From assembly GCA_903932685.1 (NCBI GenBank), contig CAIZGX010000084.1:1-64000 (forward strand): DNA of 64,000 bases, in the 5' to 3' direction. Origin of the DNA: an uncultured Bacteroidota bacterium. GTDB lineage: Bacteria; Bacteroidota; Bacteroidia; Flavobacteriales_D; Sanyastnellaceae. Positions 10,005 to 25,233 of this stretch are shown piece by piece. Position numbers and translations under genes: made by a program. The stretch's first letter is position 1, and each line of letters opens with the position of its first letter. The notes beneath the pieces are model-generated. The model worked only from the letters and a program-made list of their open reading frames with translations. It had not been told where the DNA came from and ran no database searches.

Positions 10005-10910
10005 ATGAAAGGCAATTGGCGTAGCCTTCCAGTTATTGTCATTTTGGCAATAATCTGGGGAAGTTCTTTCATCTTAATGAAGCGAGGCATGTTTGCCTTC
10101 GACGCCAACGGCATTCAGGTTCCTGTATTTTCTCCAAATCAAGTTGCGGCTTTACGATTAGGCATAGCATCATTGGTCATGCTTCCATTTGCATTTATTT
10201 TTAAAAGTTGGCTGAAGCGTGAATTAATCTGGTGGTATGTTGTAGTTGGACTATTGGGAAGCGGCATTCCTGCTTTCCTTTTCACGAATTCGCAGATGTT
10301 CTTGCATTCGAGTATGTCGGGCATCTTGAATGCGCTCACACCGCTCTTCACGCTCATTGTCGGATACTTCGTCTTCAAGAAATCGGTTCGGAAAATACAA
10401 ATTGTGGGAGTCACCCTCGGACTTGTTGGCGCGGTTTGCCTAATTAGCCTCCGCGGATTGGGCGATTCGAAGAACATGGCCTACAGCATGCTTATTGTGC
10501 TTGCCACCATAAGCTATGGCTTCAGCGTGAACACCATTCACAGCAAACTTCACGGCGTGCCATCATTTGCTATTTCTGCCTTTTCGTTATTGGTTGCGGG
10601 AATTCCATGTTGGATATTAATTGCGACTGACGGCACATTGGAAATTCTACAAAACAACACGTACGGTTGGCGCAGCCTTGGATTCATATCCACCTTGGCC
10701 ATTTTGGGCACCGCTCTAGGAAATATTCTATTCTTTCGATTTACCCAAAAGGTCGGAGCCCTTGCCGCCTCTTCCATTACTTACCTCATTCCAATAGTTG
10801 CTATCATGTGGGGAGTTTATGACGGAGAGCCGTTCACTTGGCTTCACGGTGCCTTCGCGGGGATTATTCTTACAGGGATTTATTTGGTGAATAAGCAGCC
10901 GAAGGCTTAA
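10005..10910 (+). CDS. EamA-family (DMT superfamily) permease
   Basis: A 301-residue inner-membrane protein with about ten hydrophobic segments arranged as two EamA repeats. The N-terminal signature VILAIIWGSSFILMKRGM is typical of the drug/metabolite transporter superfamily; the second repeat begins near YSMLIVLATISYGFSVN. Family members export amino acids or other small metabolites, but this substrate is unknown. It follows the T9SS gene by 2 nt. The stop codon directly touches a short-palindrome array that fills the gap to rplU. Confidence 0.85.
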   Translation: MKGNWRSLPVIVILAIIWGSSFILMKRGMFAFDANGIQVPVFSPNQVAALRLGIASLVMLPFAFIFKSWLKRELIWWYVVVGLLGSGIPAFLFTNSQMFLHSSMSGILNALTPLFTLIVGYFVFKKSVRKIQIVGVTLGLVGAVCLISLRGLGDSKNMAYSMLIVLATISYGFSVNTIHSKLHGVPSFAISAFSLLVAGIPCWILIATDGTLEILQNNTYGWRSLGFISTLAILGTALGNILFFRFTQKVGALAASSITYLIPIVAIMWGVYDGEPFTWLHGAFAGIILTGIYLVNKQPKA

Positions 10911-11002
10911 TCCCTACGGGATAAGTCCGCAAAGCGGATACATCCCGAAGGGATAAGTCCACGAAGTGGATTAGTCCGCAAAGCGGATACATCCCGAAGG
11001 GA
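10910..11002. repeat. Short-palindrome array 1: six 5-3-5 mini-hairpins, period 16 bp
   Basis: Six consecutive self-complementary 13-mers: ATCCC-TAC-GGGAT (10910), TCCGC-AAA-GCGGA (10926), ATCCC-GAA-GGGAT (10942), TCCAC-GAA-GTGGA (10958), TCCGC-AAA-GCGGA (10975) and ATCCC-GAA-GGGA (10991). Spacers are aag, tac, aag, ttag and tac, and centres lie 16-17 bp apart. A 30-bp stretch is directly repeated (10924-10953 and 10973-11002, 49 bp apart). The array begins at the EamA stop codon and ends 15 bp before the rplU -33 element. No U-tract follows, so simple termination is unlikely. Confidence 0.85.
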
Positions 11003-11017
11003 AACTAAAAAAAGTTA

Positions 11018-11047
11018 TTGTTTTCAAACAAAGAATGTGTATATTTG
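11018..11047 (+). promoter_or_regulatory. Promoter for rplU-rpmA
   Basis: TTG (11018-11020), exactly 19 nt spacer, then TATATTTG (11040-11047): the best match in the window to the Bacteroidota housekeeping sigma consensus, as expected for a ribosomal-protein operon. The leader to the ATG at 11087 is about 30-35 nt. Confidence 0.75.
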
Positions 11048-11086: not shown

Positions 11087-11395
11087 ATGTACGCAATTGT
11101 TGAAATAGCAGGGCATCAGTACAAAGTACAAAAAGATCAGCAGATCTTCGTTAATCGTCTTCAAAACGAAGAAGGAACACAGGTTGAATTCAACCACGTT
11201 CTTTTGACTGATGATAACGGTTCGATCACTGTTGGCGCCCCAGCTGTAGAAGGTGTTAAGGTCACCGCACGCGTAGTGAATCACCTTAAAGGAGATAAAG
11301 TAATTATCTTCAAAAAGAAACGCCGTAAAGGCTATCAAAAGAAGAACGGTTTCCGTGCTTATTTGACAGAAATTGTAATTGAAAACATTGGTTAA
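11087..11395 (+). CDS. rplU: 50S ribosomal protein L21
   Basis: A 102-residue ribosomal protein that binds 23S rRNA. MYAIVEIAGHQYKVQKDQ and the KVIIFKKKRRKGYQKKNGFRA signature are unmistakable. It is followed after 19 nt by rpmA in the conserved bacterial L21-L27 pair, and is preceded by a near-perfect promoter. Confidence 0.98.
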   Translation: MYAIVEIAGHQYKVQKDQQIFVNRLQNEEGTQVEFNHVLLTDDNGSITVGAPAVEGVKVTARVVNHLKGDKVIIFKKKRRKGYQKKNGFRAYLTEIVIENIG

Positions 11396-24561: not shown

Positions 24562-24718
24562 TCACCTGCGGTGATCAATTCTTCGAATCAATCTTTCAGA
24601 TCAATCGCTTGGCGATCAAACCTTCGGTGAAATCTTTCAGATTGATCACGTAGTGATTGATTGCGTAGCAATTGATCTGACAGAATCAGATTGATCACTT
24701 CGTGATTGATCCGAAGGA
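24562..24718. repeat. Short-palindrome array 2: eleven mini-hairpins
   Basis: Consecutive palindromes about every 13-17 bp: TCACC-TGC-GGTGA (24562), ATTC-TTC-GAAT (24578), ATCT-TTC-AGAT (24591), ATCGC-TTG-GCGAT (24604), ACC-TTC-GGT (24620, decayed), AATCT-TTC-AGATT (24631), ATCAC-GTA-GTGAT (24645), ATTGC-GTA-GCAAT (24660), ATCTGA-CAGAA-TCAGAT (24675), ATCAC-TTC-GTGAT (24694) and TCC-GAA-GGA (24710). In the left part units are joined by CA, in the right part by TG, so the linker reverses its strand sense near 24637. It fills the space between the rhodanese promoter and aroK and runs into the aroK 3' end. Confidence 0.85.
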
Positions 24719-25150
24719 GTAAAACCTTTCCCTTTCCGCTAAAAGCACCTTCAATTTAAAAAGCAAATCCCCTTCACTCAAAAGCGGACGCTTCGCACGT
24801 TCGGCTGGTGTATTAAGTCTATTGAACAACTCGTCAATAGACACTTCCAAATACCACACTTCAAAATGATTCAATGAAAATTCAACCTTCTCCTCAGTGG
24901 TGAAAAACCCTGCTCCCGCAGAAATGATTCCCACCGGTTCGTTCACAATCGATTTCACCATGGAAAATTCTTCCTCGCGAAATTTCTCCCACCCTTGCTC
25001 TTCCACAAATTCAGCAATACTCCTTCCCCATTTCAATTCTAACATTTCATCTACTTCATAACACGACACACCACGCTCCACAGCCAACTGCCTTGCCATC
25101 GTCGTCTTCCCACTTCCGGGCATTCCTACTAATAAAATGTGTCTCTCCAT
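24695..25150 (-). CDS. aroK: Shikimate kinase, C-terminally shortened
   Basis: Phosphorylates shikimate at the 3-hydroxyl in the chorismate pathway. The 151-residue protein has P-loop GMPGSGKT (9-16), D34 in EVDEM, R58 in the WEKFREEEF motif and R121 in the lid (AKRPLL). The shikimate-binding Gly triplet, usually GGG, reads GAG (79-81). It is 10-20 residues shorter than usual: after ERERFY the sequence runs into palindrome array 2, which encodes the last residues SFGSITK and the stop. Start ATG at 25150. aroA lies 8 kb away. Probably functional, since the lost part is normally a variable helix. Confidence 0.82.
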   Translation of the reverse strand: MERHILLVGMPGSGKTTMARQLAVERGVSCYEVDEMLELKWGRSIAEFVEEQGWEKFREEEFSMVKSIVNEPVGIISAGAGFFTTEEKVEFSLNHFEVWYLEVSIDELFNRLNTPAERAKRPLLSEGDLLFKLKVLLAERERFYSFGSITK

Positions 25151-25176
25151 ACTTATCTCATATTTCTCATCCCCAT

Positions 25177-25233
25177 CCGCGCCGCGGTCATCGCGAAGCG
25201 TCATCCACAAAGTGGTCATCACAACGTGTTGTG
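25177..25233. repeat. Short-palindrome array 3: four mini-hairpins joined by TCAT
   Basis: CCGC-GCC-GCGG (25177-25187), CGC-GAA-GCG (25192-25200), CCAC-AAA-GTGG (25205-25215) and CACAAC-GT-GTTGTG (25220-25233), each joined to the next by the same TCAT. The second unit contains GCGAAGC, a known very stable DNA mini-hairpin. It lies between divergent aroK and the phosphatase gene, so aroK has an array on each side. Confidence 0.8.

Follow-up and report, generated by a model that had tools for sequence, protein, structure and literature searches.

Palindromes that recur in bacterial genomes are as a rule identified through their conserved sequence. For one kind of them, the REPs, a role at the 3′ ends of transcripts has been proposed. 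Each REP family has a conserved palindrome and carries GTAG/GTGG or CGTC tags (PMC2817692, PMC3733652). In Bacteroidetes, the TnpAY1 genes of subclass 2.6 adjoin atypical hairpins that lack GT[AG]G and have copies elsewhere in the genome (PMC6006769).

In the window, by which we mean the whole stretch of 64,000 nucleotides analysed, six palindromes run head to tail between the stop codon of a transporter gene and the promoter of a ribosomal protein gene. Both their existence and this position had been claimed in the first-pass annotation and are confirmed from the sequence. The features, with genes called as open reading frames, are as follows.

10005–10910, + strand: EamA-family transporter gene (eamA), upstream of the array; ORF, Pfam EamA, E = 2e-35
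10910–11002, + strand: mini-hairpin array of the TCC family (F1), six units; the strand with G..T feet is +
10910–10922, + strand: unit 1, ATCCC-TAC-GGGAT (5-3-5)
10926–10938, + strand: unit 2, TCCGC-AAA-GCGGA (5-3-5)
10942–10954, + strand: unit 3, ATCCC-GAA-GGGAT (5-3-5)
10958–10970, + strand: unit 4, TCCAC-GAA-GTGGA (5-3-5)
10975–10987, + strand: unit 5, TCCGC-AAA-GCGGA (5-3-5)
10992–11002, + strand: unit 6, TCCC-GAA-GGGA (4-3-4; A..A at the fifth position)
11018–11047, + strand: promoter-like TTG-N19-TATATTTG of rplU, read from the sequence
11087–11395, + strand: rplU, ribosomal protein L21; Pfam Ribosomal_L21p, E = 1.5e-36
24563–24719, no single strand: second array of the window, of family F6, its two halves in opposite orientation; AT..AT feet, CA/TG linkers

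The eamA stop codon, TAA, ends at 10910 and its last A is the first base of palindrome 1. The rplU promoter-like sequence, of the Bacteroidota type, begins 15 bp past the last unit. Six 5-3-5 units with a 16-bp period and four arm sequences had been described; five units have this form, at centre-to-centre spacings of 16, 16, 16, 17 and 16 bp along the array, whilst the sixth is 4-3-4, and we find three arm sequences (ATCCC, TCCGC and TCCAC). The loops are indeed only TAC, AAA or GAA. The reported duplication at a 49-bp offset is also present (10919–10953 against 10968–11002, 97% over 35 nt), and we judge the proposal that the array grows by tandem copying to be right. Shuffled controls had been expected to lack such runs. 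Dinucleotide-shuffling the window 100 times produced a single run of at least three 5-3-5 palindromes and none of at least four, against the run of five strict ones in the array. The fold z-scores of the array are −8.4 as RNA and −6.9 as DNA. A search for a hairpin followed by a T-run found no such terminator at the array, and an intrinsic terminator was rejected as its identity on that account. With Rfam 15 at the gathering score the sole match in the window was a tRNA-His, so that the array matches no curated RNA family. The second array, at 24563–24719, adjoins the end of a minus-strand kinase-like ORF (24695–25222).

The array is one of many. In the genus, which is represented by Flavobacteriales MAGs of lake or unspecified origin and which we read as freshwater from their sample names, there are at least six parallel families of array, each with its own fixed linker of 2–4 nt and its own foot.

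F1: TCC stems, G..T or A..T feet; window genome and sister species
F2: linker AGA; sister species
F3: linker CCTC-CTTC/GAGG; window genome
F4: linker TCAT/ATGA; window genome
F5: linker ATTC/GAAT; window genome
F6: CA/TG linkers between AT..AT feet; window genome

Over all families the linkers are TCAT, ATTC, CCTC/CTTC, CA/TG, AGA and TNNR. Each unit consists of a linker and foot that are fixed and then a perfect stem of ~3–7 bp, closed by a loop of ~3 nt; the arms differ from unit to unit. A 409-kb sample, made up of the window and stretches of the same genome chosen regardless of arrays, contained 13 chains in which four or more perfect hairpins follow one another (0 in shuffles); 11 of the 13 lie outside called ORFs and most fall into the linker-defined families. 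Arrays of F4, F5 and F6 mix many different perfect arms. One F4 array between divergent genes (L163:10069–10216, G000:C64) has nine hairpins on an ATGA/ATAA linker, with seven different perfect palindromes. The arms covary, random re-pairing yielding far fewer perfect units than are observed; for F5, 28 of 38 are perfect compared with a mean of 4.3 and a maximum of 10 after re-pairing. In the orientation set by the tag, TTC loops are far commoner than GAA, which gives the units a polarity.

Covariation of the arms is clearer in these other families than in F1. About 11 F1 arrays are found in the 2.37-Mb genome of the window (50 pattern matches, 3 for the reversed control), and 6 of the 8 sister species have them too. 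The roughly 265 parsed units draw on essentially four stems, TCCAC, TCCGC, TCCC and TCCT, and the variation of arms within one TCC array is therefore mostly a shuffling of units and not the outcome of many compensatory events. The feet are G..T (148) or A..T (65) and rarely A..C (6), with a single orientation within most arrays. Units with one mismatch, counted on the foot-defined strand, have G.T in five cases and A.C and A.G in one each; this count is restricted to F1, chance tag matches having contaminated F2–F6.

Arrays of the two families that were probed, F1 and F5, were found only in this genus in the samples tested. The F5 probe matched 8 of the 9 genus genomes and 0 of 105 from elsewhere in the family. 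With the F1 probe, 394 further genomes from the phylum gave 5 lone matches, all outside constant-linker chains, so that these strays were rejected as arrays. The probes were single stems, which arrays elsewhere with other stems would escape. An origin from phage or plasmid was rejected, there being no blastn matches; pattern matches in viral contigs were one per contig, outside any constant-linker chain, and for the first pattern near a rough estimate of chance.

How do these arrays compare with what has been described? With REP/BIME elements and their RAYTs they share short intergenic palindromes that are tagged at the foot, cluster, show strand polarity and form several families in one genome, and their copies are likewise dispersed and mostly intergenic. 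They differ in having no conserved palindrome within a family (many arms in F4, F5 and F6, four stems in F1), neither GTAG/GTGG nor CGTC as the foot tetranucleotide, stems of only ~3–7 bp set in head-to-tail rows, and no cognate RAYT that we could find. The structures beside subclass 2.6 TnpAY1 genes resemble them, by description only, in belonging to Bacteroidetes and in being hairpins without GT[AG]G that have copies elsewhere; those enzymes have the motif Y---NP, whereas the Y1 genes found here carry the subclass 1.2 motif Y---Q--HH. The palindromes of Volvox carteri organelles (PMC2670323) are also intergenic, with loops of 3–5 nt (plastid motif TCCCCTTTAGGGA), but belong to eukaryotic organelles, average ~50 nt, are nested and more than 50% identical, have mostly TAAA/TTTA loops and are not described as having fixed linkers. 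The TAACTGA heptamer repeats (PMC4679880) are similarly short intergenic tandem repeats of patchy distribution, a few Bacteroidetes being amongst their hosts; they are plain direct repeats that lack hairpins and for the most part lie immediately upstream of start codons, and they were rejected as the identity of the arrays. In CRISPR, too, constant and variable parts alternate regularly, but the anatomy here is reversed, with constant linkers of 2–4 nt and variable palindromes in place of near-identical repeats and unique spacers.

The first-pass annotation recognised no named class of element that fits, and we have found none. The main texts of the open-licence literature yielded no description of hairpin arrays with constant linkers and variable arms, which is weak evidence of absence. 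Searches by sequence similarity would not pick up such arrays, in which a very short linker is constant from unit to unit and the palindromes are not. It is possible, and we hold it tentatively at somewhat less than an even chance, that they are REP-like tandem arrays of mini-hairpins at gene ends, which duplicate by whole units and whose stems are kept by selection. That they instead form a repeat class of their own, linker-coded hairpin arrays of several families per genus with differing perfect arms, produced by an enzyme that copies arms or exchanges units and selected for single-strand structure, we think unlikely.

Comparison of orthologous sites shows both turnover and constancy. The eamA–rplU gap holds F1 in G000 (the window genome) and G005, F2 in four sisters and no array in G007. 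The accC–lepA gap has two facing F6 arrays of differing lengths in five species, F4 in G002, a single hairpin in G005 and nothing in G007. No given array can thus be essential, as a sister species may carry another family, one hairpin or nothing at the same site. Such differing families at the same gene junction provide a natural experiment on how palindromic repeats originate, switch and are kept. Downstream of accC in one species only (L204, G006:C12), a three-unit F6 block with ATCC, ATCAC and ATTAC stems is greatly expanded. A public MAG record titled Chryseobacterium gleum (CAMCVP010000001.1) has the eamA of this genus at 94% identity and looks mislabelled.

Hairpin formation had been put forward as the thing preserved, on the ground that arms vary with pairing kept. 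The conclusion appears right, whilst the reasoning from arm variation is weaker than had been thought. Better evidence comes from a locus between convergent genes at which five species carry F1 arrays; in four of these species the initial five units can be aligned without gaps. The perfect stems are identical in this alignment, loops and linkers have diverged, and the gene upstream shows about 33–53% difference at four-fold sites; pairing has been retained in orthologous arrays, as had been anticipated. Counted over two F1 loci picked for gap-free alignment, with one species pair per locus, 0 of 134 stem sites have changed compared with 13 of 45 loop sites (Fisher p = 4e-9), at a four-fold divergence of 0.53 in the neighbouring gene of the first pair and of 0.34 in accC between the species of the second. 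Since stems stay constant between species whilst loops and linkers change, the hairpins probably serve a purpose, most likely at the ends of mRNAs; that the loops are free and the stems are not points to selection on the hairpin, in RNA or in single-stranded DNA. With stems frozen and the adjacent loops drifting, the old question of whether repeats of the REP kind have a function or are selfish can be tested directly.

The sequence of the stem is itself conserved, which pairing alone would not demand. This tells against selected REP-like arrays at gene ends, as do the missing T-run terminator at the window array, the turnover of arrays between sister species and the inconstant orientation of most families. 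Two other explanations also have to be weighed. The arrays could be a mutational by-product, in which a chance hairpin seeds slippage and template switching and the arms remain complementary without a selected function, convergent gaps tolerating the growth best. Template switching is able to make and mend perfect stems (PMC8794818), units and multi-unit blocks do duplicate, arrays come and go at orthologous sites, and convergent gaps are without promoters. Mending, however, keeps pairing and not sequence, yet the stem sequence is constant where loops and four-fold sites have diverged, and fixed linkers at unrelated loci and restriction to one genus are left unexplained; we consider a by-product rather unlikely. 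The conserved stem sequence and the regular spacing of F1 would also suit double-stranded sites on the palindromes or linkers for a regulatory or nucleoid protein, with a geometry set by the 16-bp spacing. Against a single sequence-reading protein are the differing arms of adjacent units and the differing linkers between families; unit length varies within an array, so that helical phase is not kept, and G.T feet are not palindromic in duplex DNA. Protein sites of this kind are very unlikely.

The position of the arrays in the genome points to gene ends. In the 409-kb sample, arrays occur in 6 of 25 convergent gaps compared with 6 of 200 other gaps (p = 6e-4). Convergent gaps account for 12% of the intergenic bases and for 7 of the 13 arrays that could be classified (p = 3e-4). 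At five sites, amongst them the two facing arrays between accC and lepA, an F6 array touches a stop codon, and each time its orientation relative to that gene is the same. F1, F3, F4 and F5 have no constant orientation to neighbouring genes and some of their arrays lie between divergent genes; orientation in the RNA sense, being true of F6 alone, was rejected as a general rule. The enrichment in convergent gaps and the orientation of F6 together favour a role at the 3′ ends of transcripts. For REP-like arrays at gene ends we would envisage growth and loss by whole units, either one at a time or as blocks of several (49 bp in the window array), with the identical linkers giving the register for slippage or recombination. 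Transcribed at the end of a gene, an array would form several short hairpins in series, or one larger foldback, and the folded 3′ end could impede read-through and 3′-exonucleases. Selection on single-strand structure, in preference to biased repair, would keep the stems as the loops and part of the linkers drift; repair by template switching, which could make and mend arms, may help.

The association with a REP-associated Y1 transposase proposed by the first-pass annotation finds slight support. IS200-like Y1 genes are present in 4 of the 9 genus genomes, and arrays lie close upstream of several of them, with differing linkers beside differing Y1 types. No Y1 match was found in G002, G003 and G005, incomplete MAGs that have arrays, TCC arrays amongst them, and constant-linker arrays are absent beside ~14 Y1 loci elsewhere in the order. 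The Y1 proteins have DHVH, WQ and YIKNQKNHH-like motifs, the signature of class 1.2 (Y---Q--HH) and not the Y---NP of class 2 RAYTs, and subclass 1.2 is described as lacking REPs (PMC6006769). For these reasons a RAYT origin was mostly rejected. IS elements are reported to use REPs as targets (PMC1525189), and this could explain the proximity of arrays to Y1 genes.

A broader form of the idea is that the arrays are mobile REP-like units, single-stranded DNA substrates cut and joined at the linker by an HUH (Y1) enzyme, one for each linker family, and are footprints without host function. Y1 enzymes recognise a fixed tag at the foot of a hairpin (PMC6006769), and the polarity of the units with its excess of TTC loops, the arrays near Y1 genes and the switching of families at orthologous sites are all in keeping with it. 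At most two Y1 genes per genome, though, would have to serve at least six linker families, and one Y1 gene has other hairpins at both its sides; these facts, the array-bearing genomes and the Y1 loci that lack the partner, the Y1 subclass and the conservation of stems at old loci make mobile units somewhat unlikely. The Y1 gene in question (L138, G004:C1) is flanked by CCCCCAGCTTCACTGGGGGCAATACCCATGCC hairpins, unlike array units, that are possibly its true ends. At five places (L067, L088, L096, L097 and L098) the F1 arrays have a common left flank of ~230 bp, ending in TACGTCGAAAGACGTAGGAACGAAGTTCC at several of them, and these copies are parts of a larger dispersed mosaic repeat.
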